A stretch of DNA of 54,245 bases from positions 1-54,245 of the forward strand of contig JAPPGM010000048.1 of assembly GCA_028874995.1 (NCBI GenBank). Direction: 5' to 3'. Source of the DNA: Gemmatimonadota bacterium. Its GTDB lineage: Bacteria; Gemmatimonadota; Gemmatimonadetes; Longimicrobiales; Gaopeijiaceae. The notes below the pieces were generated by a model that ran no database searches, had not been told where the DNA came from, and saw only the letters and a program-made list of their open reading frames with translations. Positions 9,789 through 50,050 of the stretch are shown here, one piece after another. A program made the translations under genes and the position numbers. Positions within the stretch are counted from its first letter, which is position 1. Each line of letters starts with the position of its first letter.

Positions 9789-9825
9789 AGCCATCGCTCA
9801 CACCTCATCACCCGGGGCGGAGAGC

Positions 9826-13498: not shown

Positions 13499-13534
13499 CA
13501 AGCCACTCCGATTGGCGGATGTCGGCAGGTCAGG

Positions 13535-13589: not shown

Positions 13590-13664
13590 AACCCTGGCTC
13601 GCCCAGCCGGATACCTTTGAGCGGTTGCCACAGGACCCCGATACCACCCTTTGAAAGGCCCCCA

Positions 13665-14306: not shown

Positions 14307-14389
14307 CACCCACCCGTCCTTGTGGACACGCTGCGGCGAGGGCACTTTCCATTCCCCGCCGGAAACCTCTCAACGCATGAAGGCCCGCA

Positions 14390-33865: not shown

Positions 33866-33951
33866 CTACGGGGCGCCCCGATTCCCGGCAGGCGCGAACA
33901 TTTCCACCACCCTCCCCCCCTCCAGCACCACCACCCGGTCCGCCGACCTGA
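33436..33951 (+). CDS. Uncertain plus-strand frame between qhpE and qhpF
   Basis: 171 residues from a GTG at 33436. The middle (RRFQRWVPRLDWPGIDGVAEVIDVRTRRWVARTVNDEVLWGTGDESLLYTIREDG) reads like real protein with GC-rich third positions, but the final 35 residues are proline-rich and overlap the qhpF 3' end. It may be a degraded or shortened gene. No family recognised and no ribosome site seen. Confidence 0.3.
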   Translation: MAIGREQQDGQYSPGWQGRLSWWAAGCSDGADDPSPVNQAFFLLAILGIRPSARKPAKPDNPLVGRRFQRWVPRLDWPGIDGVAEVIDVRTRRWVARTVNDEVLWGTGDESLLYTIREDGLMPRAALFAPSVAGEARSGRPPITTGRPDSRQARTFPPPSPPPAPPPGPPT

Positions 33952-35560
33952 CCACCTCTTCCCGGTGCGAGATCAACACCGTCGTCCGCCCTTTCATCAC
34001 CTCCGCGTAGGCCGCCACCACCGTCGCCTGCGCCTCCGCGTCCAGCGCGCTCGTCGCCTCGTCCAGCACCAGAACGGCCGGATCGGCAAGCAGCGCCCGC
34101 GCGATCGCCACGCGCTGACGCTCCCCCGCCGAGAGCGCCCGGCCCTCTTCGCCCACCACCGTGTCGAGCCCGTCCGGGAGCGACGCGACGAAATCCCCCA
34201 GCCCCGCCCGCTCCACCGCCCGCGACACGGCCCCCCGGTCCGCCTCCGGACGCGCGTACCGCACGTTCTCCAGGATCGAGGTGTTGAAGACGAAGGTGTC
34301 CTGCGCCACCACCGCCACCTGCGCCCGGAGCTCCGCCAGCGCGACGTCGCGCAGGTCGGTGCCGTCGAGGAGGACACGGCCGCGGTCGGGGTCCAGGTGG
34401 CGCACCAGCAGGTCGGCGACGGTGGACTTGCCGCTCCCCGACCGCCCCGCCAGCGCCACCACCTCGCCCGGCGCGACGGTCAGCGCGAAGCCGTCCAGCA
34501 CGTCGGCGCCGCGGCCGTGGCCGCACGACACGTCCTCGAAGACGATCTCGCCGCGCACGGGGCCGAGGGGGACGGGCGCGGCCGGGTCCTCCACCTCGAC
34601 CGGCTCGTCGAGCAGTTCGTGCACGCGCCTCAGCGACACCCGCGCGGCCCCGAGTCCCGTGTAGAGCCCCATGAGACCCTGCACCGGACCGATCAGGCGG
34701 ATCTGGTAGGCCATGAAGGCGGTGAAGGTCCCGAGCGTCATCGCCCCGTCGATCACCCGCGACCCGCCGTAGAGGAAGACCACCGCCGTGCTGGCCGAGA
34801 GCAGGATCCCCGGCAGTCCCCCGGCCAGGTAGCTGAGGCGCTGCATCTTCATGAGCGCGGACACGAAGGCGTCGTTCAGCCGGCTGAAGCGCGCGGCCTC
34901 GCGTTCGCCCGCGTTCGCCGCGGCCACCAGGCGCGCACCGCGCAGCGTCTCGATCAGGAAGGCGCCGATCCCCGCGCTACGCTCCCGCATGACGCGCACG
35001 CGTACCACCAGGCGGCGCCGGTACGCCACGATCGCCCAGATCGCGGGGGGCAGCAGGGCGGTGGCGGCCAGGAAGAGCCGCCAGTCGAGCCAGAGCAGCA
35101 TGCCCACCGCGCCCGCCAGGAAGGCCACGTTGCCGAGCCACGCCAGCGCCGCGTCGGCCAAAACCCGTTGAATTTCGCTCACATCGTTGTTAATTCGTGA
35201 AATTATTTCACCAAGTGGCGTTTTTGCGAAAAACCGTGGCGAGAGGCGGTGCAGGTGGCGGTAGACGGTCACGCGCATGCGGAAGAGGATCTCGGCCGAG
35301 ACCTTCGTGTAGCGCATCCCGCTGACGAAGTTCAGAACGAAGCTGGCCGCGGTGACGAGGACGAAGAGGACGACGACCCGCTTGAGCGCGTCCATGTCCG
35401 CGCCGAGGAGGGCGTCGTCGACCAGGGTGCGGGTGAGGAAGGGGACGTAGAGGGCGAGCGCAGTGCCCGCGAGGTTGAGGAGGATGATGACCGCGAGGCG
35501 GCCCTTGAAGGGGACGATGTAGGCGAAGCCGCGGCGGATTTCGGGGTCGAGGATGGCCAT
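33866..35560 (-). CDS. qhpF: ABC transporter (fused permease-ATPase), QhpF type
   Basis: 564 residues, ATG at 35560. The first 310 residues are a six-helix exporter domain (VIILLNLAGTALALYVPFLTRTLVDDAL onward), the rest an ATPase with Walker A GRSGSGKST, signature LSAGERQRVAIARALL, Walker B VLVLDEATSALD and switch His in VLISHREEVV. This is a type I half-exporter. In qhp loci such a protein, QhpF, exports the processed QhpC peptide to the periplasm; that assignment rests on the neighbouring qhpE and on the qhpBC genes further upstream. Confidence 0.75.
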   Translation of the reverse strand: MAILDPEIRRGFAYIVPFKGRLAVIILLNLAGTALALYVPFLTRTLVDDALLGADMDALKRVVVLFVLVTAASFVLNFVSGMRYTKVSAEILFRMRVTVYRHLHRLSPRFFAKTPLGEIISRINNDVSEIQRVLADAALAWLGNVAFLAGAVGMLLWLDWRLFLAATALLPPAIWAIVAYRRRLVVRVRVMRERSAGIGAFLIETLRGARLVAAANAGEREAARFSRLNDAFVSALMKMQRLSYLAGGLPGILLSASTAVVFLYGGSRVIDGAMTLGTFTAFMAYQIRLIGPVQGLMGLYTGLGAARVSLRRVHELLDEPVEVEDPAAPVPLGPVRGEIVFEDVSCGHGRGADVLDGFALTVAPGEVVALAGRSGSGKSTVADLLVRHLDPDRGRVLLDGTDLRDVALAELRAQVAVVAQDTFVFNTSILENVRYARPEADRGAVSRAVERAGLGDFVASLPDGLDTVVGEEGRALSAGERQRVAIARALLADPAVLVLDEATSALDAEAQATVVAAYAEVMKGRTTVLISHREEVVRSADRVVVLEGGRVVEMFAPAGNRGAP

Positions 35561-35591: not shown

Positions 35592-36887
35592 CTAGCCGCC
35601 CCGCCGAATCCGGTAGGCCTCCACCCTCTCGGAATCGAACCGGTCCCGTCCCACGACCAGAAGGAAGTCCCTGTCGATCCAGCAGACGAACAGATGGCCG
35701 CGGCACAGGAAGAACACCGGTACGTCCTTGGCCAGGACACCGAGCCATCGCCCATCCGGACCGAAGATGCTCCATTGATCCGCCGCCCACGTCTCCGAGT
35801 CGGAATACTCGCTGACCCACAGATACCCCTCCGCATCTACCATGAGACCGTCGATCGGCGGATAGGTCTGCACGCTCCGCATCGCCTCGAGTTTGCTTTC
35901 CGGAAGCGAAAAGCCCTGCGACTCGTAGAACCTGGCATTCCGATCTTCCCATGCCCTCCTTGCCTTGTCGGTTACGCGGAAAGGATCGGTCGTGCGCCTA
36001 ATGATCCTGAGCAGGACGCCATCGGGCGAGAACTGGTGGATCTCGTTCCGGTCGCCGCGGCTGACGTAGATCGCAGGGGGATCGCGTCGCGTTGCGATGA
36101 ACCTGGGGCACGCGAACGAGTGGGCCCTGTAGGTAGTGTCGACTCTGAGGAATTCGTCGGCGGGGTCCTCGCTCACCTGCGCCTCGTCGAGGATCTCGCC
36201 CCTCATCGACACCCGAATCCTGTCCCAGCGCCGTGTCGGCGAACAGTCGCTCCACGCCGGCTCGGCCTCGGATTGCCGGCCCGTCTTCGACGATACGAAC
36301 GATCCATCGCTTAACGGGAAGCGGAAACTCTCGCCCCAGAGGTCGTGCTCCCTCAGCCTCAAGTGGTCTACGGACCGTTCTTTCAAGAGCGTGCCGGCCG
36401 TATTGAAGTAGTCGATCGACGTCATGTGGTAGTCCCACACGACCAGCGTGTCGGGCGGCAGGTACTGGAGCTTTTCCGGACGGGTGAACTCGCCCGGGCC
36501 ATCGCCTGCCCGGCCGATGATCCGCGACAGCTCGCCCGAGGGTTCGAAGAGCAGGAGCTGCTGGTTCTCGGACGACAGGACCGCCACGCGGCCGTCGGGC
36601 AAGCGCACCAACCCCACCACCCGCCAGATCAGCTGGGCGGAATCGTCGGCCAGCGCGTCGATATCCTCCACCCCGCCCAGTACGAACTCGGGGTCCGGAT
36701 CGATGGTCCAGAACCGCCCTGCAGCGTGTTCCGGCGCGTGGTTCTCGACGATTTCGACGCCGGCGGAATCCCACACGGTGAAGGTCGGAGCTTCGGCGGA
36801 ATCACTTCCGTCGCCGGGCATGCGGTCGCACGCCGACACGGTGATCGCCACCGCCACGGTGGCACGGAAGGCAGGGCGGCAACGCAT
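35592..36887 (-). CDS. Six-bladed beta-propeller lipoprotein (subfamily B, copy 1)
   Basis: 431 residues, ATG at 36887, lipobox Cys20 (TVSAC). Subfamily B is marked by DSAGVEIVENHAPEH, FWTIDPDPEFVLGG, the blade motif RAGDGPGEF, LQYLPPDTLVVWDY, the IIRRTTDP segment, and a C-terminal VEAYRIRRGG. It ends 31 bp before qhpF, so it may share a transcript with the exporter. Role unknown. Confidence 0.85.
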   Translation of the reverse strand: MRCRPAFRATVAVAITVSACDRMPGDGSDSAEAPTFTVWDSAGVEIVENHAPEHAAGRFWTIDPDPEFVLGGVEDIDALADDSAQLIWRVVGLVRLPDGRVAVLSSENQQLLLFEPSGELSRIIGRAGDGPGEFTRPEKLQYLPPDTLVVWDYHMTSIDYFNTAGTLLKERSVDHLRLREHDLWGESFRFPLSDGSFVSSKTGRQSEAEPAWSDCSPTRRWDRIRVSMRGEILDEAQVSEDPADEFLRVDTTYRAHSFACPRFIATRRDPPAIYVSRGDRNEIHQFSPDGVLLRIIRRTTDPFRVTDKARRAWEDRNARFYESQGFSLPESKLEAMRSVQTYPPIDGLMVDAEGYLWVSEYSDSETWAADQWSIFGPDGRWLGVLAKDVPVFFLCRGHLFVCWIDRDFLLVVGRDRFDSERVEAYRIRRGG

Positions 36888-36921
36888 CACGAGTCTCCTC
36901 TGGCTGTGTCCCGGCGGACCG

Positions 36922-38223
36922 TCAGTCCCTCTGTTCAATGAACCCATGGAGCACCACCGACTCCACATCGAGTTCGTCCCTGACCCGCAGCAGCACATGG
37001 TCGTCGCCGATGTCCAGGATTCTCGCGCCGCGGGGCAGGTCCATCGTGGCCTCGAGGGAGCCGGAGGGTGTGAACGCGAGCCACGTCGCGGAGGATGCGC
37101 CCGGCGGCACGAACTGCTGGACCCAGAGCAACCCGTCGCTCCCGACCTGAAACCCCTCGTAGGACCGCGCCGTGTCGGGGTAGGGGAACTGATCCGCGGT
37201 CCGGCGGTGTTCCGCAATGGACTGGTCATCGTAACTGCCCCGCGAAAGCCGCTCCTCGATCCAGGTCTTCTTGAGGTCGTCCGTGACCGGAACGCGCGGT
37301 GCCGTCCACCGAATGATGGTCTTGAGTTGGCCCGTCCGATTCAGCACCTCGATCTCGGGCCTGCCTCCCTCGCCGACCGCAACCGCCGATCCCCATGCCA
37401 GGGCCAGGCCGTGCGGGGCGAACGGAACAGCGGTCGTCCCGTTCATCGGCCCGATCTCCGTCTGCATCTCGACCCGAGCGAGGCTGAGGCCGGGCACGCG
37501 ACCGATGGCACCCTCGTATTCACCGTCCTCCCCGAAGGTGTGCATGACGAGAGTCTCCCTCCACGACTGGTTGCCGGAATACACGACAATCCCCCGGTCG
37601 TCCACACCCGCCGGCTCCGGGCGGTCGCGTATCTCCACCATCAGGTAGCCGCGGTCGAACCTCCCGGCAAGCCGCGGTCCCGGCGTCAGCGCTCCCGTCT
37701 CCAGGACGTGCGTACCCACCATCGCGCCCGAGGAATCGAAGACCCTGACACGGCGGACTCGGTGGTCCCAGGTCTCCACGCGCCCGCCGCTCAGGGCGAA
37801 GATCTCGAAGAGCCTGGCGCAGGCCCCGGCCGAAAACTCGTCGGGGCCCTCACCCTCGCGCCCGGCCCCCGTCAGGTAGACCCCGGAGGTGTCGTACCAC
37901 CTGAGGATGGGCGGCAGACAGTTGGACACGACGATTTGCCCGTTGTCGAGGAGCCGGGCGCCGGAGACATCGTAGAAGAGGTAGGCGGTATCGCCGCTGA
38001 CGACTCCGATTCGCGTCCGCGGTTCGTCGGAGAGGACAAGGCGCGCCGGCGGCGTATGCGAGACCACCACGGTGATGCCCGCGCTGTCGTAGCGCTGTGC
38101 GGGGACGATCTCGACGGGCGGGTCGCCACACCCGGCGGCCGCCGTCGAGGCCACGGCCAGAGTGAACAGCCCGCGCGCCCGCATGACCATCACGGCGGCG
38201 TCGTTCGGTCGCTGGCACATCAT
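36922..38223 (-). CDS. Six-bladed beta-propeller lipoprotein (divergent, subfamily D1)
   Basis: 433 residues from the first of two adjacent ATGs (38223), which has GGAGG seven bases upstream. Lipobox Cys32 (TAAAGC). It keeps the GREGEGPDEF motif and a VTDDLKKTWIEERL segment analogous to subfamily B, but otherwise its blades differ. It lies 34 bp upstream of the subfamily B copy 1 gene and is probably co-transcribed with it. Function unknown. Confidence 0.82.
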   Translation of the reverse strand: MMCQRPNDAAVMVMRARGLFTLAVASTAAAGCGDPPVEIVPAQRYDSAGITVVVSHTPPARLVLSDEPRTRIGVVSGDTAYLFYDVSGARLLDNGQIVVSNCLPPILRWYDTSGVYLTGAGREGEGPDEFSAGACARLFEIFALSGGRVETWDHRVRRVRVFDSSGAMVGTHVLETGALTPGPRLAGRFDRGYLMVEIRDRPEPAGVDDRGIVVYSGNQSWRETLVMHTFGEDGEYEGAIGRVPGLSLARVEMQTEIGPMNGTTAVPFAPHGLALAWGSAVAVGEGGRPEIEVLNRTGQLKTIIRWTAPRVPVTDDLKKTWIEERLSRGSYDDQSIAEHRRTADQFPYPDTARSYEGFQVGSDGLLWVQQFVPPGASSATWLAFTPSGSLEATMDLPRGARILDIGDDHVLLRVRDELDVESVVLHGFIEQRD

Positions 38224-38321
38224 GCTTCTGCCTCCGTGGGTCTGACGCACCGCCCTTGGTCCCATTACTTGGAGAGGCGTGCTCCCCGCCCGGGTTGTCT
38301 TCCGGCGCGTCGCCGTCCTCG

Positions 38322-39620
38322 CTATCCATCCCGCCGAACGCGGTACCCCTCGACCCGTTCCCGGCCCAGCTCGTCCCTTCGCACGACTAGAAAGTAGTCC
38401 TTCCCCACCCGGCAGTTGGAGGTAGCCCGCGCACACAGGCCCACATCCGGAGCCGCGGGATCCGGCGGGAAGGCCAGGACTCCCAGCCATCGCCCCTCCG
38501 GGCTGAAGACGCCCCACTGGTCCGGTATCCCGGACTCCGAAGCCGACCACTCCCTGACCCAGAGGTAGCCGTCGGCGTCCACCAGGATGGACTCGATCGC
38601 GGGGTACTTCTCCCTCCTGGGAATCGGTTCGTCGTCTTCGGTTTGCGGGGGCCAACCGTCCATTGCACGGTTCCGGGTCCGATGAGCCAACTCGGCCTCC
38701 CACGCCTTGTCGGTCACCGGCGGCGGCTCGGTCGTGCGCCGGATGATGCGCACCAGCGTACCGTCCAGCGACCACTGCCGGATCTCCACGTGGTCGTTGC
38801 TGATGTAGACAAACGGGGGATCGCCGCCCGCCGCCACGTGAGTCCCATATGGCCTGGCACAGCCGAATGAGTGCGCGGCGTAGGCGTCGTCGATTCGCAG
38901 GAGTTCTTCGCCATGCACTGTCACTCCTTCGGCCCGAAGCGGGCTGCCCATCAACGCCCAGGACAGACCGTGCGCCGCCAGGTGAGAGCAATCGCCGGGG
39001 GATTCGTCAGCGGTCAGGTCCGGGACACCCGCCAGGAAGGACCCGTGCGGCAGGGGGAGCCTGAGCGATTCCGCCCCGGCCCCGTGCACGCTCATCCTGG
39101 CGAAATCGAGCGAACGCTCCTTCAGGAGATTCCCATCGGGATCGAAGTAGTCGATGGACGACAGGAAGTAGTCCCATACGACCAGCGTGTCGGGCGGCAG
39201 ATGCTGGAGCGCCAGCGGGTGGGTGAACTCGCCGGGGCCTTCTCCCGGTCCACCGATGATCCGGGACAGTTCGCCCGAGGGTTCGAAGAGCATGAGTTGA
39301 CGGCTCCCGGAAGATAGGACCGCCACTCGGCCGTCGGGCAAACGCGCCAGTCCCGCCACACGCCAGATCAACTGCGCCGAATCATCGGCCAGGCCGCTCA
39401 GGTCTTCGGACCCGCCGAGCACGAACTCCGGCTCGGGGTCGACGGTCCAGAAGCTCTCGGCGGGATGCTCGGGGGCGTGGTTCTCGACGATCTCGATGCC
39501 GGCGGAATCCCGGACGGTGACGGTGGGGTTTTCGGCTGTGTCACCAAAGGGCGCCCGGTCGCACCCGAACACGGCCGGCGAGATCGCGAGGGCAACGGGA
39601 AGGGTCAGTCGTTCGAGCAT
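38322..39620 (-). CDS. Six-bladed beta-propeller lipoprotein (subfamily B, copy 2)
   Basis: 432 residues from the ATG at 39620, behind GGGAGG; an upstream GTG would lengthen it by 10. Lipobox Cys20 (AVFGC). It carries DSAGIEIVENHAPEH, FWTVDPEPEFVLGG, GGPGEGPGEF, HLPPDTLVVWDY, IIRRTTEPPPVTDKAW and the ending VEGYRVRRDG. It follows the 168-residue membrane protein gene by 30 bp, a pairing repeated at 42948-44755. Confidence 0.86.
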   Translation of the reverse strand: MLERLTLPVALAISPAVFGCDRAPFGDTAENPTVTVRDSAGIEIVENHAPEHPAESFWTVDPEPEFVLGGSEDLSGLADDSAQLIWRVAGLARLPDGRVAVLSSGSRQLMLFEPSGELSRIIGGPGEGPGEFTHPLALQHLPPDTLVVWDYFLSSIDYFDPDGNLLKERSLDFARMSVHGAGAESLRLPLPHGSFLAGVPDLTADESPGDCSHLAAHGLSWALMGSPLRAEGVTVHGEELLRIDDAYAAHSFGCARPYGTHVAAGGDPPFVYISNDHVEIRQWSLDGTLVRIIRRTTEPPPVTDKAWEAELAHRTRNRAMDGWPPQTEDDEPIPRREKYPAIESILVDADGYLWVREWSASESGIPDQWGVFSPEGRWLGVLAFPPDPAAPDVGLCARATSNCRVGKDYFLVVRRDELGRERVEGYRVRRDG

Positions 39621-39650
39621 CCGCAACCTCCCTGCCGCGAAACAAGACAT

Positions 39651-40157
39651 TCAGAAGCGAAGCGACACCCCCAACCCGAGCTGCCCGTTCGGCGTGACCG
39701 ACAGGGCGAGGCCCGCGTCGTCGAGGTTGAGACGCCTCCGGTAGAACGCATTGGTTCTGTTTGCCAGCCTCCACGCAGAAACAGATGCCCAAATGCGACT
39801 TCCGTAGAACACTGCGACACCGGCAACACCCACGATGGTTTCCACAGTGCACGGATCGTGTCGGCAATCAGGGTGGTTCGCAACGAAGCCGGCCGCGAGC
39901 CATGTGATCGCTCCTCCCGCCGTCAGCCAGGCCGCCAGCTTGCCCGCATCCCGATCGCCCGCGTAGTCGTAGCCGGCAGTGGGAATGATCAATTCGAGCG
40001 TTGCAGCGAGGAACGGGCTCTTCTTCATGTCCTCATAGCGTTCCTCGGGACTCTTCTGGGGGGGCCGCACGATAGTCGGTCGCTGGGCGTGGACCTGGCC
40101 GGCATGGCCGAGGAGAGCGCCGAGAACGAGCAGGGAGGTGACGTAACGGTGCTTCAT
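39651..40157 (-). CDS. Small exported membrane protein paired with propeller (copy 1)
   Basis: 168 residues, ATG at 40157. A signal peptide ends near LGHAGQVHAQ. The mature start RPTIVRPPQKSPEERYEDMKKSPFLAATLELIIPTAGYDYAGD is followed by two or three hydrophobic segments and an ending SVTPNGQLGLGVSLRF that looks like a beta strand. It resembles small DUF5683-type membrane proteins only loosely. It is close to the 44249 gene, and both precede a subfamily B propeller gene. Confidence 0.75.
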   Translation of the reverse strand: MKHRYVTSLLVLGALLGHAGQVHAQRPTIVRPPQKSPEERYEDMKKSPFLAATLELIIPTAGYDYAGDRDAGKLAAWLTAGGAITWLAAGFVANHPDCRHDPCTVETIVGVAGVAVFYGSRIWASVSAWRLANRTNAFYRRRLNLDDAGLALSVTPNGQLGLGVSLRF

Positions 40158-40334
40158 CTGCGAATCTCCTGCCGTTCAAGCTCCCATCCCGGTGCGCTTC
40201 TTTGCACCCCCTCCGCGAGCAAACGTGCACCTCCCGGGTTCCAGCGGCAATGGTCCGCCTCCCCTGTGTGGCCCGTCTTCGGGTGCTACCCTGAGCGTTT
40301 GCTTCGGACGAATAGTGCTGCGAGCCTTGTAGCC

Positions 40335-41576
40335 ATGAGGTACGTCAACCGGAAGTGCCACGTCGCCATCGTCCTGTACTGCACGGCGTGCGGCCCTTCC
40401 GACCGGACCGAGGAGAGCCTTCCCAGCCGCGTGGACAGCGCGGGCGTGGCGATCGTCCGGAACACGGATCAGCCGTGGCCTCGCGGGGAACTGGTCCAGC
40501 CCGCCAGGCGCGTCTTCGGTTCCGAGACCGAAGGCCCGGAGCTGTTCGGTGGACTCGGCAACGTTCGCTTGCACCCGAATGGATCGCTGTGGATCAAGGA
40601 GCGGCAAACCCAGGAGATTCGGGTGTTCGACTCCGGCTCCGGGGCGCATCTGTTCACGGTCGGTGGGCGGGGTGACGGCCCTGGTGACTTCCGGCAGAGC
40701 AAGTTCCTGGGGTTCGACGGCGAAGGAATCGCCTACGTGTATGACTTTGAACACCGGCGACTGTCCGTGTTTTCCGAGAGCGGTGAGTTGCTGCGCACCG
40801 ACCTGATGCCGTCGTCCCTCGGCTTCCGGCCGGATCCACACCACGTGACCCGGGCGGGAACCCTTCTTGGCCAGATCGCGAGAGAAATGGGGCGCATACC
40901 GGCAGACGGCTCGACGTTCAGGGATACGGTCCGCATGTGGACCATGCCGCTGGACGGGACGGCCCCCGCTCTCGTGTCGGAGACACCTGGCGCACTGTGG
41001 TACTTCCGGGATCGAACGCAGGTCGTCGTACCGTACACCGGGATCCTGCCGTCCCCGTACGCCGGCGGCCCCCTTCACGGATTCCGGGACGACCGCGTCT
41101 ACGTGGTCGATGACACCGGGGAGGCGTCGTTTTCCGTGTACGGCCCGGTAGGTCTCGAGCGCAGGGTCGAGATGGCCCGGGCACCCCGAACGATCGATGG
41201 CCGCTCCACGGCGATGTTCGTTGAGCATTTGCGGGGCATCCGCTTTCCCGAATACCAGGTGCGGATCTACGAGGAGCACCTGTCCGACATGCCGATACCG
41301 GAGACGCGACGTCATTGGGATGCGCTCGTGGTCACGGATCGAGGTGGCGTGTGGCTCCAGCAAGTCGGCGGCACCGAAGCGGCGCCGGCGGACCTCCCAC
41401 CGGAGAATCGATTCTGGGACGTATTCGACGCCGAGGGCTTCCTTGTCGGCCATATTCAACTGCCCGGCAACGTCTCGCCGGCGCAGGTGAGGGGACAGTC
41501 CGTGGTCGTGGTCGTCCGTGACGAGATGGACCGCGCCACGGTCGCGATCCACGAGGTTCGATGGACGGGGGCGTAG
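40335..41576 (+). CDS. Six-bladed beta-propeller lipoprotein (divergent, subfamily D2)
   Basis: 413 residues, ATG at 40335, with lipobox Cys19 (YCTAC). It keeps the VDSAGVAIVRNTDQ start and GGRGDGPGDF motif of the family but the blades diverge from subfamilies A-C. It is the only plus-strand propeller inside the array and is divergent from the 168-residue protein gene, 177 bp away. Function unknown. Confidence 0.82.
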   Translation: MRYVNRKCHVAIVLYCTACGPSDRTEESLPSRVDSAGVAIVRNTDQPWPRGELVQPARRVFGSETEGPELFGGLGNVRLHPNGSLWIKERQTQEIRVFDSGSGAHLFTVGGRGDGPGDFRQSKFLGFDGEGIAYVYDFEHRRLSVFSESGELLRTDLMPSSLGFRPDPHHVTRAGTLLGQIAREMGRIPADGSTFRDTVRMWTMPLDGTAPALVSETPGALWYFRDRTQVVVPYTGILPSPYAGGPLHGFRDDRVYVVDDTGEASFSVYGPVGLERRVEMARAPRTIDGRSTAMFVEHLRGIRFPEYQVRIYEEHLSDMPIPETRRHWDALVVTDRGGVWLQQVGGTEAAPADLPPENRFWDVFDAEGFLVGHIQLPGNVSPAQVRGQSVVVVVRDEMDRATVAIHEVRWTGA

Positions 41577-41585
41577 GAGGCTCCC

Positions 41586-42866
41586 CTACGTCCGCCGCCG
41601 AATCCGGTACCCCTCCACCCTCTCCACCCCCAGCTCGTCGCGCCTGACGGCCAGGAAGTAGTCCCTTCCCACCCAGCAGGGGGTGGCGTCCCGACCACAC
41701 ATCTGATAGTCCGGCGCCCCGGGATCCGGCGGGAAGGGCAGCACGCCCAGCCATCGCCCATCCGGGCTGAAGACGCTCCACTGGTCCGGAATCCCGGACT
41801 CCGACGCCGACCACTCCTTGACCCACAGGAATCCCTCCGGACTCACAAGCATGGATTCGACCGAGGCGTACTTCTCCCTCCTGGGTACCGGCCCTTCCTC
41901 TTCCGGTCGCGGCGGCCAGCCCATCATTTCCCGATACGCCTCCAGGTGCGCCAGTTCGGCCTGCCACGCCTTGTCGGTGACGGGCGGCGGCTCGGTGGTG
42001 CGGCGAATGATCCGCACAAGCGTACCGTCCATCGATCGCTGATGCACCTCGTTGCCGCCGTTGCGGATGTAGAACGAGGGGGGATCGCCTCCCGCGGCCA
42101 GCAGGCTGAAGAAACTGCTGGAGCATCCGAACGGGTGCGCGGCGTAGCTGTCGTCGATCTTCAGGAGTTCTTCCGCGTGCAGGACCATCTCCCCGAAGCG
42201 GGCGGACTGGCTCGTGACCGTCAGGTGGGTGCAATCGTCCGGGGATGCGTCGGCAATCGTGTCCATGACCCCGACCAGGAAGGACCCGTCCGGAAGCGGG
42301 ATCCTGCGCGACTCGCCCCAGGCGCCGAGGTCCCTCAGCCTGGCGTAGTCGACCGTGCGTTCCCTGAGCAGCTCGCCGCTGGAATCGAAGTAGTCGACCG
42401 CCCTCAGAAAGTAGTCCCACACGACCAGCGTGTCGGGGGGCAGGTACTGCAGCCGTTCCGGCCGGGTGAACTCGCCGGGACCCTCGCCCGGCCCGCCTAC
42501 GATCCTGGCCAGCTCTCCCGAAGCTTCAAAGAGCATGAGCTGCTTGTTCTCGGAGGACAGGACGGCCACCGTGCCATCCGGCAGCCGCGCCAGTCCGACC
42601 ACGCTCCAGATCAGTTGGGCCGAGTCGTTGGCGAGTTCGCCCGGGTTCTCGGACCCTCCCAGTACGAATTCGGGTTCCGGGTCGATGGTCCAGAACTCCC
42701 CGTCCGCGTACTCGGGCGCGTGGTTCTCGACGATTTCGACGCCGGCCGAGTCCCAAACGGTGAAGGTCGGATCCGCCTCGGCCGCGCTGTCGTCCGCGGG
42801 CCGTTCACAACCGGACGCGGCCAGGGAAAGGGAAAGAGCGGCGACAATGGTCACTTGCCTGAACAT
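41586..42866 (-). CDS. Six-bladed beta-propeller lipoprotein (subfamily B, copy 3)
   Basis: 426 residues from the ATG at 42866, preceded by GGAGA. Lipobox Cys20 (AASGC). It shows DSAGVEIVENHAPEY, FWTIDPEPEFVLGG, GGPGEGPGEF, YLPPDTLVVWDY, IIRRTTEPPPVTDKAW and a final VEGYRIRRRT. Closest in sequence to copies 2 and 4, from which it seems recently derived. Convergent with the D2 gene, whose stop is 9 bp away. Function unknown. Confidence 0.86.
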   Translation of the reverse strand: MFRQVTIVAALSLSLAASGCERPADDSAAEADPTFTVWDSAGVEIVENHAPEYADGEFWTIDPEPEFVLGGSENPGELANDSAQLIWSVVGLARLPDGTVAVLSSENKQLMLFEASGELARIVGGPGEGPGEFTRPERLQYLPPDTLVVWDYFLRAVDYFDSSGELLRERTVDYARLRDLGAWGESRRIPLPDGSFLVGVMDTIADASPDDCTHLTVTSQSARFGEMVLHAEELLKIDDSYAAHPFGCSSSFFSLLAAGGDPPSFYIRNGGNEVHQRSMDGTLVRIIRRTTEPPPVTDKAWQAELAHLEAYREMMGWPPRPEEEGPVPRREKYASVESMLVSPEGFLWVKEWSASESGIPDQWSVFSPDGRWLGVLPFPPDPGAPDYQMCGRDATPCWVGRDYFLAVRRDELGVERVEGYRIRRRT

Positions 42867-42947
42867 TCGCGGTCTCCTGTCCAAAATATGACTAGATAAT
42901 CTGACTAACTTTAGCACCTCTACGGTTCCCCGAAACACGTCAAGAGG

Positions 42948-44240
42948 TCACGAGCCCGATTCCGCGCCCGCAGATCCTGCTTGCCCGCGCCGAATCCGGT
43001 ACCCCTCCACCCTCTCTCTCCCAAGCTCATCACGCCGAATCATCAGGAAATAGTCCTTTCCCACCCAGCAGGGGGAGAACATCGAGCAGAGGTCAAGATC
43101 CGTCGGCTCCGGATTCGGTGGCAGCGCGAGGGCGCCGAGCCACCGTCCCTCCGCATTGAACACACTCCACCGGTCGGGTAGGCCCGACTCCGAATCCGAC
43201 CACTCGTTGACCCAGAGATAGCCTTCGGCATCCACGAGAAGAGCTTCGATCGCGGGGTATGCCATCCTCCTGCGGGGTTCGCCATCGCCTCCCATCCACA
43301 TTGGCCCGCTCAGCGCTTCCCTTGATCTCTCCCGGGCTTCCAACTCCGCCGCCCACGCCTTGTCGGTGACGGGCGGCGGATCGGTCGTACGCCGAATGAT
43401 CCGCACCAGAGTACCGTCGAGCGATCGCTGATGCACCTCGTCGCCCGTGTTGCTGATGTAGACCGACAAGGGATCGCCACCCACCGCCATGCGAGACCCG
43501 GGGCGGGAACACCCGAACGGGTGGGCAGCGTAGGCACCGTCGATCCTGAGGAGCTGTTCGCCGGGCACGGTGATTTCGTCCTGACCGGCGAAGCTGACCT
43601 TGGTGTCCAGGTGGGAGCAATCCTCTTGCGGCCGGCCGGCAGCTCTTTTCCTGACTCCGATCAGGAATGACCCATCCGGAAGGGGAAGCCGAAACGGGTT
43701 TTCATAGGTGGCCCCGTGCTCCATCAGCCCGGCATAGTCGACCGACCGCTCTCCGAGCACCGTCCCGGCGGTGTCGAAATAGTCGATCGATGCCCCGAAG
43801 CGCTCCCACACGACCAGCGTGTCGGGCGGCAGATACTGCATGAGTTCCGGTATGCCGAACTCGCCCGGGCCCTCTCCCGGGCGGCCGATGGTACGGGACA
43901 GCTCTCCTGAAGGGTCGAAGATGAAGAGTTGCTTGTTCGAGAAGGAAAGTGTCGCCACCCTGCCGTCCGGAAGCCGTGCGATTCCGGCCGTCCAATCCAA
44001 CCGGGCGGAGTCGTCGGCCAGCACGAATTCGGGCTCGGGGTCGATGGTCCAGAACTCCCCGGCGGGATACCTCGGGGCGTGGTTTTCGATGATTTCGATG
44101 CCCGCGGAGTCCCGGACGGTGAAGCCGTGATCTTGGACGGCCAGACTCTCGTCCCGTGATGCGGAGTCGCACCCGGACACGATGACTGCAATCGTCACGA
44201 CTGCGCTGACCGTCGTCCCCCGGAACTTGGCGAGCGTCAT
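42948..44240 (-). CDS. Six-bladed beta-propeller lipoprotein (subfamily B, copy 4)
   Basis: 430 residues, ATG at 44240, eight bases after the stop of the 168-residue protein gene. Lipobox Cys24 (IVSGC). Motifs are DSAGIEIIENHAPRY, FWTIDPEPEFVL, GRPGEGPGEF, YLPPDTLVVWE, IIRRTTDPPPVTDKAW and VEGYRIRRGQ. The blade after PEFVL is shorter than in other copies, with the GGSED-type linker deleted (VLADDSARL). Function unknown. Confidence 0.86.
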   Translation of the reverse strand: MTLAKFRGTTVSAVVTIAVIVSGCDSASRDESLAVQDHGFTVRDSAGIEIIENHAPRYPAGEFWTIDPEPEFVLADDSARLDWTAGIARLPDGRVATLSFSNKQLFIFDPSGELSRTIGRPGEGPGEFGIPELMQYLPPDTLVVWERFGASIDYFDTAGTVLGERSVDYAGLMEHGATYENPFRLPLPDGSFLIGVRKRAAGRPQEDCSHLDTKVSFAGQDEITVPGEQLLRIDGAYAAHPFGCSRPGSRMAVGGDPLSVYISNTGDEVHQRSLDGTLVRIIRRTTDPPPVTDKAWAAELEARERSREALSGPMWMGGDGEPRRRMAYPAIEALLVDAEGYLWVNEWSDSESGLPDRWSVFNAEGRWLGALALPPNPEPTDLDLCSMFSPCWVGKDYFLMIRRDELGRERVEGYRIRRGQAGSAGAESGS

Positions 44241-44248
44241 TGCGCTAA

Positions 44249-44755
44249 TCAGAAGCGCAGCCGCACTCCCAACCCGAGTTGCCTGCCCGGCGTGACCGAC
44301 AGGGCGAGCCCCGCGTCGTTCAGACCGAGACGCCTCCGGTAGAACGCATTGGTCCGTCTTGCGAGCCTCAAGGCCGAATCGAACGCCCAAACGCGACTGC
44401 CAATGATAGCCATCGCGCAAGTCTTGACTGTAATCTCGCGCCCCCAACAGCGCGGTTTGTCCCTCGTACAGTGGTGTCCGGTCATTGCAGTGGCCCAGAA
44501 GATGACCGCCGCCGCACCCATCAGCCCGGCCATCGGCTTTCCCCCATCCTCGTCGCCGGCATACGCGTGGCCCACGGTGGGGAGGATCAGCTCGAGTGTT
44601 GCGGCGAGCCACGGACTCTTCTTCATGTCCTCGTAGCGTTCTTCCGGACTCTTCTGCGGGGGCCGCACGATCCTGGGTCGCTGGGCGTGGAGTTGGTCGG
44701 CATGCCCGAGCAGGACACCGAGAACGAGGAGCAAGTTGATGTGACGGTGCTTCAT
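44249..44755 (-). CDS. Small exported membrane protein paired with propeller (copy 2)
   Basis: 168 residues, the same length as the 39651 gene. Signal peptide to about LHAQ; RPRIVRPPQKSPEERYEDMKKSPWLAATLELILPTVGHAYAGD is nearly identical, while the middle differs and adds cysteines (HHCTRDKPRCWG). The end SVTPGRQLGLGVRLRF is conserved. Its pairing with a subfamily B propeller immediately downstream repeats the 38322-40157 module. Confidence 0.75.
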   Translation of the reverse strand: MKHRHINLLLVLGVLLGHADQLHAQRPRIVRPPQKSPEERYEDMKKSPWLAATLELILPTVGHAYAGDEDGGKPMAGLMGAAAVIFWATAMTGHHCTRDKPRCWGREITVKTCAMAIIGSRVWAFDSALRLARRTNAFYRRRLGLNDAGLALSVTPGRQLGLGVRLRF

Positions 44756-44864
44756 GTGCGAAACTCCTTCCGTTCCAGCTCCCATCCGGGGTGGAAAACG
44801 TGCCCCCACCGGCTTCGAACGGCAACCACCCGTCTCCCAAGTGGGGGCGAGCGGGTCGAGAGAA

Positions 44865-46005
44865 TCAGTTGCCCGGCAAACTGTAGCGTTCCAGAAACGC
44901 CTGGTCGACATCGTTGAAGGCGACCACATAGACCGATTCCGCCCCGAAACCCGCCACGCGCCGGTCTCCGTCAGCGACCAGGCGGAGCACCAGACGCCCC
45001 TGCCGGTCGAAGACGTCATAGGGGCTGTCGCCGCCGCCCGCATCGTGGCGGAGCACCCAGGCCCGGTCCATAGGGTCGACATGAACGGTCTGGTAGTGGA
45101 AGGCCGGCATCACCTCCGGCCATTGGTCGCTGTCGTAACTCAGCTGTTCCGTGTCGGGATTGCGTCGGTAGGGAATGAAACGCGTGTCGCCGGTCGGACC
45201 GAAAACCCCGCGAATGGCCCGGGAGTGGCGCTGGAGGTCGCGAAAGAACTCTTCCATGAGCGTCTGGGTGACGGGGATGGCGGCGAACGCCACGGTGTCG
45301 CCGTGAAGCACCGAGCCGCCGGGCGAGATCCAGTCGACGCCGTAAAGCGTCAAAGCGTGCCACAACGACCGATCCGTCGGCGGCCACACCCCAGGCATCG
45401 TGCGGCATCAGCGTACCGGCCCACTTCGTCTTGATGGTCCGGAGACTGTCGACCGTTTCGCGTGCCGGATCGACGCGCAGGATCGTGGCGGTGTCGGCAC
45501 CCGTCGGAGGCCACGGCTCCGGTGCGACATAGATGTGTCCGCGAGCGTCCACTGCGTGGGGTGCCGCCAGCAGGACGCTCCCCCCTTCCGGATGCACGGT
45601 GATGGACTGCGTGGCCGCGACTTCCAGGTTTGGCGCAAGCCGCATCAGGCGGCCGTTGCCCAGGTCCACCAGCAGCGTTGAGTCGCCCGGCAGCGGCCAG
45701 ACGGCATCCGGCTCGAGGTATTCGTCGGGCCCCTCCCCCCGTCCCCCCACCGTCGTGCGCGTCTGCGCCTCCATGTCCACGCGATAGACGGCCCTGTCGA
45801 ACAGGTCGGCGAGCAGGACGTCGCCGCCGGGCAGCTCGCGCACCACGTGCAGATATCCGAACGCCTCGGGGAAGACTGCCGTGGGCGGTCCGAGTGGTGC
45901 GCGCGGCTGTTCCGCAACCTCGTCTTCGGCGACGTCGCCGCACGCAAGCCCGCAGGCGAGCGATATGGCCACCACCATTCGACGCCAGAGTATCGTTGAA
46001 CCCAT
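44865..46005 (-). pseudogene. Frameshifted beta-propeller lipoprotein (subfamily C, copy 1)
   Basis: The gene starts at ATG 46005 with a lipobox Cys22 (CGLAC) and reads RGEGPDEY and HDAWGVAADGSVVVAR, then shifts frame. One extra T in a run of three (plus-strand A at 45344-45346) breaks it; after that point the other frame continues with YGVDWISPGG, HYQTVHVDPMDRAW, DVFDRQGRLVLRLVADGDRRVAGFG to the stop at 44865. The intact paralogue at 47433 shows the expected unbroken order. Either a genuine recent inactivation or a sequencing error. Confidence 0.8.
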
Positions 46006-46051
46006 GTCGGGGCCTTTCCAGCCGGGGTGAGTCGACCGTCCGCCCTGGTCC

Positions 46052-47377
46052 CTAGTCCGCCCGCCGAATCCTGTACCCCTCCACCCGCTCCACGCCATAG
46101 TCGTCGCGCCTGATCGTCAGGAACATGTCCCGGTCCACCCAGCAGGGCACCATGTACTTGTAACACGTGAAGAGATCCGAGAGCGCGGGTTCCGGCGGCA
46201 CGGTGAGGATTCCCAGCCAGCGTCCCCACGGACTGAAGACGCTCCACCGGTCCGGCCATCCGGTCTCCGACTCCGACCACTCCCTTACCCAGAGATAGCC
46301 TTCCGCGTCCACGACGAGTCCGCCCACCGCCGGATACGACTCCTTGCGGGGCATCCCGTCGAAGACGCCCGGAGGCAGAGGCTCGCCGATCACTTCGCCG
46401 AACGCGTACATGTCATCCATCCACGCGCCGTGCGATCTGTCGGTTACGGCCAGCGGATCGGTCGTTCGCCGGATGATGCGCAGCAGCTTGCCGTCGAGGG
46501 CGAACTGGAGGATTTCGTTGCGGTCGCCCTCGCTGATGTAGACCGAGAGCGGATCGCCTCCGACCGCGATGTGGGAATCGAGTGCAAAGGTGGGGACGAA
46601 GGGGATGCCGAAGTCGGAATCGATGTCCATCTCCGGAACCCACATCTCCATCCCTGCCCATTTCCCGAAGGATTGGATGCCGTATTCATCGTCGACCCTC
46701 AGGTATTCTTCGGGCATGAATCTGAACGTGCTGCCGGGCATCGGTTCGCCGAGCTCCCTGGCCGCCTCCGGGTCACCGCGACCCACGATAAAGGACCCGT
46801 CCGGAAGGGTCATTCTCATGGACTCGCCGGACGCGCCGGGCACGCGCTCCATCAGGACGGCGTGGTCGATGGTCCGTTCCCGCAGCAGCGAACCTTCGGT
46901 ATCGAAATAGTTGATCGAGGTCATGTGGTAGTCCCAGACGACCAGCGTGTCCGGCGGAAGGTACTGCAGCCGTTCCGGCCGCAGGAACTCACCGGGACCC
47001 TCTCCCGCACGTCCGATTGTGGCGGACAGCTTGCCGGAAGCCTCGAAGAGGAACAGCGCCCGGCCCTCGCCGGAGAGGACCGCCACCCTGCCGTCCGTCA
47101 AGCGGGCGATTCCGACCACATCCCAGATCAGCTGTGCCGAGTCGTTCGCCGCGCCGCGCGGGTTTTCTTCCCCACCCAGCACGATCTCGGGCTCGGGGTC
47201 GACCGTCCAGAACTGCCCGGGCAGGTGTTCGGGCGTGTGGTTCACAACAATCTCGACGCCCGCGGAGTCGTGGACGGTGTAGCCGGTGCCGTTGGCGCCG
47301 GGCACCGCAGGCCGGTCGCAGGCCGCGGCGGTGATCGCCATCGCGCAGACGGTGGAGAGGGCGGTCGGCTTGTTCAT
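46052..47377 (-). CDS. Six-bladed beta-propeller lipoprotein (subfamily B, copy 5)
   Basis: 441 residues, ATG at 47377, with lipobox Cys20 (TAAAC). It keeps DSAGVEIVVNHTPEH, FWTVDPEPEIVLGG, GRAGEGPGEF, YLPPDTLVVWDY, IIRRTTDPLAVTDRS and VEGYRIRRAD. It is about ten residues longer than its relatives, with an extra loop around MWVPEMDIDSDFGIP. It sits between the two subfamily C genes. Function unknown. Confidence 0.86.
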   Translation of the reverse strand: MNKPTALSTVCAMAITAAACDRPAVPGANGTGYTVHDSAGVEIVVNHTPEHLPGQFWTVDPEPEIVLGGEENPRGAANDSAQLIWDVVGIARLTDGRVAVLSGEGRALFLFEASGKLSATIGRAGEGPGEFLRPERLQYLPPDTLVVWDYHMTSINYFDTEGSLLRERTIDHAVLMERVPGASGESMRMTLPDGSFIVGRGDPEAARELGEPMPGSTFRFMPEEYLRVDDEYGIQSFGKWAGMEMWVPEMDIDSDFGIPFVPTFALDSHIAVGGDPLSVYISEGDRNEILQFALDGKLLRIIRRTTDPLAVTDRSHGAWMDDMYAFGEVIGEPLPPGVFDGMPRKESYPAVGGLVVDAEGYLWVREWSESETGWPDRWSVFSPWGRWLGILTVPPEPALSDLFTCYKYMVPCWVDRDMFLTIRRDDYGVERVEGYRIRRAD

Positions 47378-47432
47378 CGGGGGGACTCCCTGTGGTGTAC
47401 GTGGATGATCGGTGGAATGTGTCGTGAAAGGG

Positions 47433-48728
47433 TCAACCACCCGGCAGCCGGTGGCGTTCCAGGAACACGCGGTCGAGGTCGTCGAAGGCCGCGACGTAGA
47501 CGGCACCGGCCCCGAACCCCACCACTCGCCGGTCGCCGTCCGCCACAATCCGCAGCGCGAGCCGTCCCTGGCGGTCGAAGATGTCGTAGGGACTGTCGCC
47601 CCCGGCCGAGTCGTGGCGGTGCACCCAGGCGCGGTCAAGCGGGTCGACATGGACGGTCTGGTAGTGGAAGGCCGGCATCACCTCCGGCCAGAAATCCCGG
47701 TCATACTGTGCCGGCTCCAGGTCCGGATTGCGTCTGTAGAGAATGAAGCGCGCGCCGGCGGCACCGATGACCACACTCCGAATGACCCGGGAGTGGCGCT
47801 GGAGGTCACGATAGTACTCGGCCTTCTCGGCAGTGGTGACGGGGACCGGGTCATAGGGCACGGTGTCGCCGCGGATCACCGAGCCATCGGGCGAGAGCCA
47901 GTCCACACCGTACGCGTCGGCCCGCGCCACGACGACCGAACCGTCGGCGGCCACACCCCAGGCGTCGTGCGGCATGAGACCTCCCGCCCACCTGGTTCTG
48001 ATGGTGCGTAGGCTGTCGACCGTTTCGCGCACCGGATCGATGCGGAGAATCGTGGCAGTGTCGGCCCCGGTAGGGGGCCACGGCTCCGGTGTGGTGTAGA
48101 TGTACCCGTGACGATCGACGGCGTGCGGCACCGCCAGCACCATGCTTCCCGCCTCGGGACGGACGGTCATGGAGCGGGTCGCTCCGAACGCCAGATCCGG
48201 CCCGATTCTGACCAGGCGTCCGCGGCCCACGTCGACCAGCAGCGTGGAGTCCCCTGGCAGCGGCCACACGGCGTCCGGTGCGAGGTATTCGTCAGGGCCC
48301 TCTCCCCGTCCCCCCACCATCGTGCGGGTCTGCGTCGCCATGTCCACGCGATAGATCGCCTCGTCCAGCAGGTCGGCGACGAGGACATCGCCGTCGGGCA
48401 GCTCGCGCACCGAGTGCAGGTACCCGAATTCACCCGCGAAGACTGCCGTGGGCGGGCCGAGTGGTCCGCGAGGCGGCTCGTCGATCCGGCGTTCCATGAC
48501 GCGGTCTGTGGCAACATCGGCGCAGGCGGGAGCGCACAAGAGGATTGGGGCAACTGCGATTCCAAGCCGCCTGGCCGCCGATTTCAGCGCCGACGATGAC
48601 CGTGATTCGCGGCCACTGCCGGGTCCGTCGCTGTGGAAAAGGGGTCGCTTGCTGATCGGATGGACTCCCTGCCAACAGTGGGGACGTGTCCGGCGCGCCG
48701 GGCACCGGGCGGGGGGGGACACCACCAT
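47433..48728 (-). CDS. Beta-propeller lipoprotein (subfamily C, copy 2; start uncertain)
   Basis: From ATG 48728 the frame encodes 431 residues, but the signal peptide (LGIAVAPILLCAPAC) lies about 60 residues in, which is odd. A CTG at 48587 would place it at the N-terminus and give 384 residues; the 5' end may also hide a frameshift. The body shows GPLGPPTAVFAGEFGYLHSVRELPDGDVLVADL, GGRGEGPDEY, WPLPGDSTLLVD, and the ending FLERHRLPGG shared with the broken copy. Function unknown. Confidence 0.7.
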   Translation of the reverse strand: MVVSPPARCPARRTRPHCWQGVHPISKRPLFHSDGPGSGRESRSSSALKSAARRLGIAVAPILLCAPACADVATDRVMERRIDEPPRGPLGPPTAVFAGEFGYLHSVRELPDGDVLVADLLDEAIYRVDMATQTRTMVGGRGEGPDEYLAPDAVWPLPGDSTLLVDVGRGRLVRIGPDLAFGATRSMTVRPEAGSMVLAVPHAVDRHGYIYTTPEPWPPTGADTATILRIDPVRETVDSLRTIRTRWAGGLMPHDAWGVAADGSVVVARADAYGVDWLSPDGSVIRGDTVPYDPVPVTTAEKAEYYRDLQRHSRVIRSVVIGAAGARFILYRRNPDLEPAQYDRDFWPEVMPAFHYQTVHVDPLDRAWVHRHDSAGGDSPYDIFDRQGRLALRIVADGDRRVVGFGAGAVYVAAFDDLDRVFLERHRLPGG

Positions 48729-48922: not shown

Positions 48923-48952
48923 ATTACATTATGGAAACTTGCCATTACATTA
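48923..48952. promoter_or_regulatory. Paired ATTACATTA direct repeats
   Basis: ATTACATTA occurs at 48923-48931 and 48944-48952, 21 bp apart (two helical turns), between qhpB and the subfamily C propeller gene and upstream of the latter. The first eight bases resemble one arm (ACATTACA) of the palindrome upstream of the molybdate regulator. Confidence 0.3.
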
Positions 48953-50050
48953 ACCCCCCGGCCCCGTCCCCTCCGGAATCATGATGAACGAGGTCATGTC
49001 CGCGTCGTACGCCACCGTGCGCAGGAACTCGTACGTGGCCGCGTCGTACACGTCGACTGTGCCGCCCGCGTTGTAGATGTACAGGAGCTCGCCGTTCGAG
49101 CTGACCTCCAAGCTCATCCGGGGCCGTCCCGCAAACCGCTGGCGGCTCTCCACCCGGCGGCCCTCAAGGTCGAAGGTCCAGAACTCGTAGTTCCCGATCT
49201 GCTGCACCAGCCCGTACCCCTTCCTGCCCCCCGGCGCCAGACGAAAGCTGACCCCCCGGCTTGGCCCCAGGGTGAAGAAGTCGAACTCCCTCTCGGCAAG
49301 GTTGACCCGCGCGATCCCCATGATGCGGCGGTTCTGCACCGGGTCCGTGAAGTTGAACAGCCCGGTGTGGATGCCCGGCTCGTCGTGCGAGCTGCGGGGG
49401 AAGCCGAAGCTGAAGCGGCCCAGCCCCTCCTCGAGCGGCCGGGACAGTTCCCAGCGATCCGCTTCCGTGTAGTTCTCCGTCTCCAGCACGAGAATGTCGC
49501 GGCCGAAGAAGTACAGGTACTCACCGTCGGGCGAGAACATGAGGCGCACCCGCTGGCGCTCCTCGCCGTCCGGCCACGGGATCGTGTCGGTGACCTCCTT
49601 CTCCTTCAGGTCGTACTTGAGGAGGACCGGATCGTCAATCTCCCAACGGTCGATCCGCTTCGTGTAGCGCATCGTGTTGAGGATGACGAACTCCTCCTGC
49701 GGGTCGACCGTCATCCCCCAGATCCGCACCTTCGACCGTCCCCGGCTCAGCGTGAAGCTGTCGATGGACTTGCGCGCGGCCACGTCGATGATCTCGATCT
49801 CCTCGAATTCGGCGTTGCGCAGGTAGATGCGTTCGTGGTTCTGCGATAGCGTTAGGCTGATGGGGATCCCGGTCGTCGTCTCGATCCGGTCGACTACCTC
49901 CAGCGTGCTCTCGTCGATGACCAGGATGGACCGGTCGTAGGCACCCATGTAGATGATGCCGTTGCCGCCGCTTTGGGCCTGGGCGGGTGGGGTGGTGAGG
50001 GTGAGGGCGGCGAGGGCCGCGGCCGCGAGCGGGGCGGAAGAACCCCTCAC
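48950..50050 (-). CDS. qhpB: Quinohemoprotein amine dehydrogenase beta subunit-like propeller
   Basis: 366 residues from a GTG at 50050, overlapping the qhpC stop by four bases (GTGA). A signal peptide is present (PLAAAALAALTLTTPPAQAQ). The mature part is a YVTN-like propeller: IIYMGAYDRSILVIDESTLEVVDRIETTTG, RSKVRIWGMTVDPQEEFVILNT, VRLMFSPDGEYLYFFGRDILVLE and ELLYIYNAGGTVDVYDAATYEFLRTV. In QHNDH the beta subunit is a seven-bladed propeller packed against the gamma subunit in the periplasm. Assignment rests on this fold and on the translational coupling to qhpC. Confidence 0.8.
   Translation of the reverse strand: MRGSSAPLAAAALAALTLTTPPAQAQSGGNGIIYMGAYDRSILVIDESTLEVVDRIETTTGIPISLTLSQNHERIYLRNAEFEEIEIIDVAARKSIDSFTLSRGRSKVRIWGMTVDPQEEFVILNTMRYTKRIDRWEIDDPVLLKYDLKEKEVTDTIPWPDGEERQRVRLMFSPDGEYLYFFGRDILVLETENYTEADRWELSRPLEEGLGRFSFGFPRSSHDEPGIHTGLFNFTDPVQNRRIMGIARVNLAEREFDFFTLGPSRGVSFRLAPGGRKGYGLVQQIGNYEFWTFDLEGRRVESRQRFAGRPRMSLEVSSNGELLYIYNAGGTVDVYDAATYEFLRTVAYDADMTSFIMIPEGTGPGG

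Follow-up and report, generated by a model that had tools for sequence, protein, structure and literature searches.

Genes for NHL-type propeller lipoproteins probably inserted into a formerly contiguous qhp operon in a genus of Gemmatimonadota

The stretch of DNA analyzed here (the window) corresponds to the full length of contig C30 (JAPPGM010000048.1, 54,245 bases) of the Gemmatimonadota assembly G000 (GCA_028874995.1; 4.52 Mb in 191 contigs). It carries part of the qhp operon, which encodes quinohemoprotein amine dehydrogenase, together with 14 genes of a propeller lipoprotein family, split 3+9+2 along the contig. Nine of these (a1 to a9, the array) stand between the stop of qhpB (48950) and the start of qhpF (35482), and both counts agree with the original prediction, a note made from the sequence alone. 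The qhp genes and the array are on the minus strand throughout 50454-32636, with a4 as the sole exception. The genes in question are the following, where PF17170 is the domain family used for scoring.

8547-9788, 9826-11082 and 11079-12323, plus strand: p01, p02 and p03, propeller lipoproteins outside the qhp genes (PF17170 at 29.9, 26.5 and 34.1 bits)
32636-33442, minus strand: qhpE, subtilisin-like protease (NF049966 at 147.4 bits)
33866-35482, minus strand: qhpF, ABC exporter (ABC_membrane and ABC_tran; adjoins qhpB or qhpE in relatives)
35592-36884, minus strand: a1, subfamily B propeller lipoprotein (PF17170 at 27.3 bits; orthologues in G029, G033 and G014)
36922-38187, minus strand: a2, single propeller lipoprotein (aligns with the array family; 90% orthologue in G029)
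38322-39617, minus strand: a3, subfamily B propeller lipoprotein (PF17170 at 19.1 bits; 65% to a5)
39651-40157, minus strand: small array protein, first copy (no Pfam family; homologues in the arrays of G033, G014 and G029)
40338-41576, plus strand: a4, single propeller lipoprotein (PF17170 at 22.6 bits; orthologues in G029, 93%, and G014, 69-70%)
41586-42863, minus strand: a5, subfamily B propeller lipoprotein (PF17170 at 20.9 bits; AlphaFold2 model)
42948-44237, minus strand: a6, subfamily B propeller lipoprotein (PF17170 at 23.7 bits; 59-62% to a3 and a5)
44249-44755, minus strand: small array protein, second copy (67% to the first copy; DNA repeat families D11 and D12)
44865-46005, minus strand: a7, subfamily C propeller, frameshifted (alignment to a9; two frames)
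46052-47374, minus strand: a8, subfamily B propeller lipoprotein (PF17170 at 31.1 bits; orthologues in G014, G029 and G033)
47433-48593, minus strand: a9, subfamily C propeller lipoprotein, start codon uncertain (72% to a7; strict motif GRGEGPDE)
48950-50098, minus strand: qhpB, beta subunit (TIGR03907 at 3e-11; relatives 62-94% identical in the conserved order A-D-C-B-F-E)
50047-50454, minus strand: qhpC, gamma subunit of quinohemoprotein amine dehydrogenase (PF08992 at 8.7e-33; NF037958 at 119.7 bits)
51821-52861, plus strand: p13, subfamily D propeller, divergent from qhpC (69% to p14)
53102-54121, plus strand: p14, subfamily D propeller (69% to p13)

Pairwise identities within the array returned the subfamilies that had been predicted, namely the five members of subfamily B (a1, a3, a5, a6 and a8, 53-65% identical to one another), the pair a7 and a9 of subfamily C, and the singles a2 and a4, which share about 30% identity or less with the rest of the array. 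The array DNA contains direct repeats of 62-82% identity, and the gaps inside it measure 9-180 bp. The frame of a7 is broken by one extra T, and its relative in G033 is also frameshifted, but at another position. The two copies of the small protein were counted as part of the array.

Of the qhp genes, the window carries only C, B, F and E, and the others were located on contig C136 of the same assembly.

C136:185-1741: QhpG-like flavoprotein (FAD-type open reading frame before A; homologues next to qhpA in relatives)
C136 2654-4204: QhpA (TIGR03908, 463.9)
C136 14743-16138: QhpD (TIGR03906, 487.8)

Given that A and D are on another contig, with ankyrins between them, the locus is in at least three pieces and the earlier description of two halves around the array was rejected. 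QhpA, QhpC and QhpD exceed the curated cut-offs of their models (274.35, 50 and 453, respectively). QhpB and QhpE score under theirs (43 versus 223.2 for TIGR03907 and 147.4 versus 165 for NF049966) and were assigned because of the conserved gene order and the identity to relatives. QhpB is the enzyme's own propeller subunit and is distinct from the array family. The interval between A and D on C136 is a 10.4 kb ankyrin stretch, with three long ankyrin-repeat reading frames (4302-14875, minus strand) whose homologues are found at the same junction in G029, G021 and G018. A further reading frame lies directly after qhpD (C136 16175-16819, minus strand); it has a 99% identical copy in the D-C interval of G029 and is one that we take to be PD-(D/E)XK/AAA-like.

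Among 121 genomes of the bacterial family, PF08992 (QhpC) was found in 58 and all 58 loci were mapped, 19 from the window's genus and 39 from other genera. Outside the genus, the visible genes follow the order G-A-D-C-B-F-E in every one of the 39 loci (G037 has G elsewhere) and no propeller gene lies inside any of them, including at the B-F junction, which is visible in 33. A set of 63 qhp loci fetched from GTDB contigs (17 from the genus and 46 from outside, many of the latter titled Acidobacteria) gave the same picture, with propellers inside none of the 46 non-genus loci. Within the genus, 14 of 19 loci have propellers inside the operon or adjoining it. Considering visible junctions only, they are present at B-F in 6/17, at D-C in 4/16 and at F-E in 6/12, and the remaining ones adjoin C or F at contig ends, while ankyrins exceeding 3 kb occupy A-D in 4/14 (G000, G018, G021 and G029). 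As an example, the complete genome G033, from the same genus, has D, then 24 kb with three propellers, C-B, a propeller array and F-E. No propellers are inside the operon in G030 and G018, where the qhp genes look intact.

Several loci call for comment. The contigs of G013, G015 and G017 end before the F-E junction. A propeller remnant was sought in the 885-1078 bp gap between B and F of G012, G013, G015, G020 and G023, with no match. One propeller type at F-E is common to G012, G023, G024 and G027, and in G030 this gap is only 5 bp, which may reflect a clean loss of the insertion, a junction that was never invaded, or replacement by recombination. In G016 QhpC was not found, but a loss of qhp was rejected: contig C228 carries QhpF behind three copies of subfamily B, so that a break in the assembly is the probable cause of the gap. 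In G032, like G033 a complete genome (OX638356.1 and OX639991.1), qhpE is in two parts (L039-L041): a fragment stands behind one propeller, and the larger portion of the gene behind a second propeller about 20 kb further along. Such a layout would be expected from duplication of a propeller-qhpE segment. Four records of metagenome-assembled genomes (MAGs) titled Gammaproteobacteria (L148, L149, L152 and L154) have a qhp locus that belongs to the related genus g2 and are probably mislabelled bins, other g2 members being titled Gemmatimonadetes. The near relatives are MAGs that presumably come largely from sponge projects.

The clades of the genus were taken from a tree of concatenated Qhp proteins, in which clade I comprises G000, G014, G029, G033, G019, G022, G021 and G026 (support 81) and clade II has a support of 96; G016 is outside this tree. 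In the propeller tree, built from the 145 of 186 segments with at least 220 residues, the subfamily B copies at B-F are orthologous across clade I, and a search with a5 added G016 and G026 to the genomes that have subfamily B immediately before QhpF. The junction holds nine propeller genes in G000, six in G029, four each in G033, G019 and G022, and three in G014 (mapped as 10, 7, 5, 4, 4 and 3 segments, one gene each being split by a break in G000, G029 and G033). In G021 the B-F gap is 173 bp and there is no array. The repeated local duplication proposed at the outset is thus borne out by orthologous subfamily B copies at the same junction of relatives, in differing numbers. We read subfamily B at B-F as the probable outcome of one ancestral insertion, followed by local birth and death of copies. 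In nine clade II genomes subfamily B has no match at E <= 1e-45, and both subfamilies B and D are also found away from qhp; relatives of p13 occupy the D-C interval of G033, G019 and G022. Orthologue identity is uneven, with a8 at 93% to G014 and 77% to G029 and a1 at 67% and 82%, respectively, while QhpB is 96% identical to both. Decayed copies were observed in G000, G033 and G029.

Concerning the proteins themselves, a5, the only one modelled (AlphaFold2, 30-sequence alignment), is predicted to be a beta-propeller (pLDDT 82, pTM 0.84), and the fold of the array proteins would be an NHL-type propeller, with a blade number taken from the NHL matches. Against the curated cut-off of PF17170 (22.9 bits), a1-a6, a8, a9 and p01-p03 were scored: p01-p03 all pass, as do three of the eight testable array copies (a1, a6 and a8), a3, a4 and a5 fall below, and a2 and a9 have no Pfam match at E <= 1. 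The N-terminal cysteine (C19 in a5 numbering) is invariant across a 13-sequence alignment and a lipobox pattern was matched in a1, a2, a5, a6 and a8; together with the fold, this suggests ligand binding at the envelope. The ratio of nonsynonymous to synonymous substitution rates (dN/dS) of orthologous array copies is 0.15-0.32 (0.49-0.60 for a4), compared to 0.07-0.10 for QhpB. The copies thus appear, from their sequences, to be under purifying selection, less strict than that on QhpB, and so most of them look like working genes.

A motif G-x-G-(E/D)-G-P-(G/D)-(E/D) had been claimed for all propellers of the window and tentatively regarded as a common binding surface. In this form it is present in 5/14 (a3, a4, a5, a7 and a9), and its core, G-[ED]-G-P-[GD]-[ED], in 14/14. 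The binding surface did not hold up. Of the 134 long members of the family that were collected, the majority from outside qhp, 119 have the core, by which a qhp-specific binding mark was rejected. Since the motif sits between two strands of the model (118-123 and 135-141), on a stretch that aligns to the NHL repeats of TRIM proteins, we read the GEGP core as a likely structural blade turn, that is, a signature of the blade, and not as a shared or qhp-linked binding site.

The family is not restricted to qhp. G000 has 141 family matches, and 103 matches were counted in 20 other stretches of it, with up to 11 per stretch. In G033 about 137 propeller genes form 77 clusters, with arrays of up to six (among the 150 of 159 matches listed, merged), and 54/60 neighbouring propellers are on the same strand. 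A propeller is found in 21% of random 11.5 kb windows of this genome; the 37 kb between qhpD and qhpE hold six, a number reached by 4% of random windows. Ankyrin and propeller genes are also mixed near 3.85-3.87 Mb of G033. As a control, G000 was compared with 840 kb of the relative G036, which gave 35 one-to-one orthologues and 10 operon-like pairs, the two members of each pair being on the same G000 stretch. Six of the pairs are intact, three, all at qhp, are open (928 bp free of propellers at G-A, ankyrins at A-D and propellers at B-F) and one is open on C58, where three propellers separate amidohydrolase and flavoprotein genes. On C37, six propellers are found where G036 has 553 bp, a case found by eye that is not a same-strand pair. 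Because the G000 stretches were chosen for their propeller richness, the control shows that other gene runs are broken, and not how often.

Per-genome load was approximated by first-look family counts, the family-wide count having scored only 16 candidates per genome. These range from 89 to 238 in all 14 genomes with propellers at qhp. Without propellers at qhp, they are 74 in G018, 42 in G030 and at most 79 in the 39 genomes of other genera; G013, G015 and G017, where F-E is not visible, have 92, 79 and 130. The association with qhp that had been suggested is therefore judged to be positional and lineage-specific, as far as gene positions and sequences indicate, with propellers scattered genome-wide and lacking from the non-genus loci of both data sets. 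The original prediction had named such a scatter, independent of qhp, as a sign of positional chance, and this is largely what is seen; what stands of the association is the retention of subfamily B at B-F in clade I.

We consider it probable that NHL-type propeller lipoprotein genes of a proliferating family (PF17170 with divergent relatives) inserted into the formerly contiguous operon G-A-D-C-B-F-E. The comparison indicates a single entry of subfamily B at B-F within one clade, after which its copies multiplied and diverged there and some of them decayed, and it shows other propeller subfamilies, along with ankyrin-repeat genes, at D-C, F-E and A-D in the same or the sister clade. It also shows that the propeller family has invaded other gene runs. 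The spread would be by ordinary duplication and by recombination between similar copies. Since the Qhp proteins stay intact, the insertions were apparently tolerated, with Qhp presumably still expressed via read-through or internal promoters. Most copies would be working lipid-anchored envelope proteins, each of which would bind a ligand of its own through the propeller face in dense host-associated communities.

Several points weigh against this explanation. The control is small, both in its orthologues and pairs and in drawing on a single relative. In the separation by load, ancestry is a confounder, the count is a proxy and G013, G015 and G017 are unscored at F-E. With 77 clusters over about 4000 junctions (a round number), about 0.12 would be expected in six junctions, and two invaded junctions in G033 have a probability of about 0.006, before allowing for post hoc choice; qhp may thus be a favoured insertion site, though the operon was chosen for being hit. 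No transposase or att-like element was found that would explain the movement of copies. Finally, subfamily B is kept at B-F in 7/8 clade I tree genomes, plus G016, and is absent only from G021 in that clade, which could mean selection for that place. A working link between the array and amine oxidation is possible but unsupported, and it is considered mainly because subfamily B stayed at B-F through most of the clade.

Among the alternatives, the one that fares best, though we hold it as a doubtful possibility, sees in the arrays a stock of surface antigens or receptors that is reshuffled by recombination, with neighbouring copies converting one another and so varying the view presented to host or phages. 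It is compatible with the insertion of a proliferating family and would be the function of that family. Local duplication, the uneven orthologue identity of a8 and a1 beside a uniform QhpB, the decayed copies, and the propeller-qhpE arrangement of G032 all speak for it. However, averaged over genes the dN/dS values (0.15-0.60) give no positive selection, hidden paralogy could produce the same pattern of identities, and surface exposure is only predicted.

We regard as unlikely that the B-F array is a functional part of the qhp system, its lipoproteins, located in the outer membrane or periplasm, being made from the qhp transcript and either capturing amines from the host or community for the periplasmic dehydrogenase or assisting its assembly. 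This would fit with an array that has short gaps and, except for a4, follows the qhp strand, with subfamily B lying directly upstream of qhpF in nearly all of clade I and G016 and missing from the nine clade II genomes, and with purifying selection on the copies. Nevertheless, the 39 loci of other genera, G030 and G018 do without propellers, the last two with qhp genes that look intact, and G021 has qhp without a B-F array; subfamilies B and D have members elsewhere than at qhp; a4 is antisense and a7 frameshifted; and the other junctions carry different propeller types and ankyrins. Less likely still is that the operon is a preferred landing and breeding ground for propellers and ankyrins, with the B-F propellers recruited as lipid-anchored, amine-presenting receptors and joined with the catabolic operon into one unit, a view that would have to stand in spite of the single turnover of QhpD, QhpG and QhpE, which are believed to require expression together with QhpC. 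A mobile or integron-like system that inserts the propeller genes as cassettes at a dedicated site is very improbable, for although arrays are mostly head-to-tail (as in G033) and insertion points are many, no 11-mer is common to more than 5/118 flanks, perfect 8-bp stems occur in 3 and 2 of 118 flanks versus 1 and 2 in shuffles, one member is inverted within the array, and orthologous copies stay at one junction across the clade with no shuffling.

Some neighbouring genes of the window are recorded here. Three amidohydrolase genes and a DAO-type oxidoreductase gene lie side by side at 1051-7158 (minus strand), and a second DAO gene follows p01-p03 within 8547-13498. A pair of adjoining genes at 13512-15043 (plus strand) belongs to the Golgi phosphoprotein 3 family (GPP34, PF05719). 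Just downstream of qhpE, 29822-32320 (minus strand) encodes a SIR2-like and STAND NTPase protein (PF13289, PF25199), which resembles Avs5 anti-phage proteins, with a weak NF041814 match that is far under its cut-off.

According to passages of a published account (PMC7876137), each of QhpD, QhpG and QhpE works in single-turnover fashion, with which their shared operon is described there as being consistent. A genus in which the operon is broken at up to three junctions, with apparently intact Qhp proteins, therefore constitutes a natural experiment on whether such co-transcription matters. The results also point to bacteria, mostly sponge-derived, in which envelope propellers have greatly expanded; no description of this expansion was found in the literature searched. 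Were the B-F propellers indeed recruited receptors, a catabolic operon and a receptor repertoire would have merged into one unit.

In comparison to known systems, the closest family is PF17170 (DUF5128, 6-bladed beta-propeller), with which the array shares the motif core, the lipobox cysteine and the fold class, and whose cut-off is passed by a1, a6, a8 and p01-p03; unlike it, a3, a4 and a5 miss the cut-off, a2 and a9 show no match, and the window's genus has a very high copy number and the habit of forming arrays. Exported or surface propellers of Bacteroides are similar in structure, namely BF0058 (4RAA; VIA-align Z 16.2, root-mean-square deviation [rmsd] 4.5 over 289 residues) and the DUF4221 protein BVU_1028 (3S9J; Z 16.4, rmsd 4.8 over 300 residues), and BtuG-type B12 surface lipoproteins appear among the Foldseek hits, but identity of these Bacteroides propellers to the array protein is 9-14%. 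No TonB-dependent transporter was present among the Pfam-scanned genes of the window, from which no exclusion is drawn, as the scan did not include every open reading frame and partners need not adjoin. The best solved fold is the NHL domain of Brat (1q7f; Z 18.6, rmsd 3.6 over 263 residues) and the best sequence-profile hit is Thin (3.8e-38). These TRIM/Brat domains are eukaryotic and bind RNA or protein, whereas the array members are predicted exported bacterial lipoproteins, and a fold in common shows no function. The repeat expansions of sponge symbionts, with ankyrin and other eukaryotic-like repeats, concern the same kind of host, and ankyrin genes are in this same qhp operon; propeller arrays of this family differ in not having been found described in the literature searched. 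As for the qhp operon itself, A, C and D are over their NCBIfam cut-offs and B, E and F are kept in order, but what is one cluster in the other genera mapped is, in the window's genus, cut by propellers and ankyrins at up to three junctions per genome.

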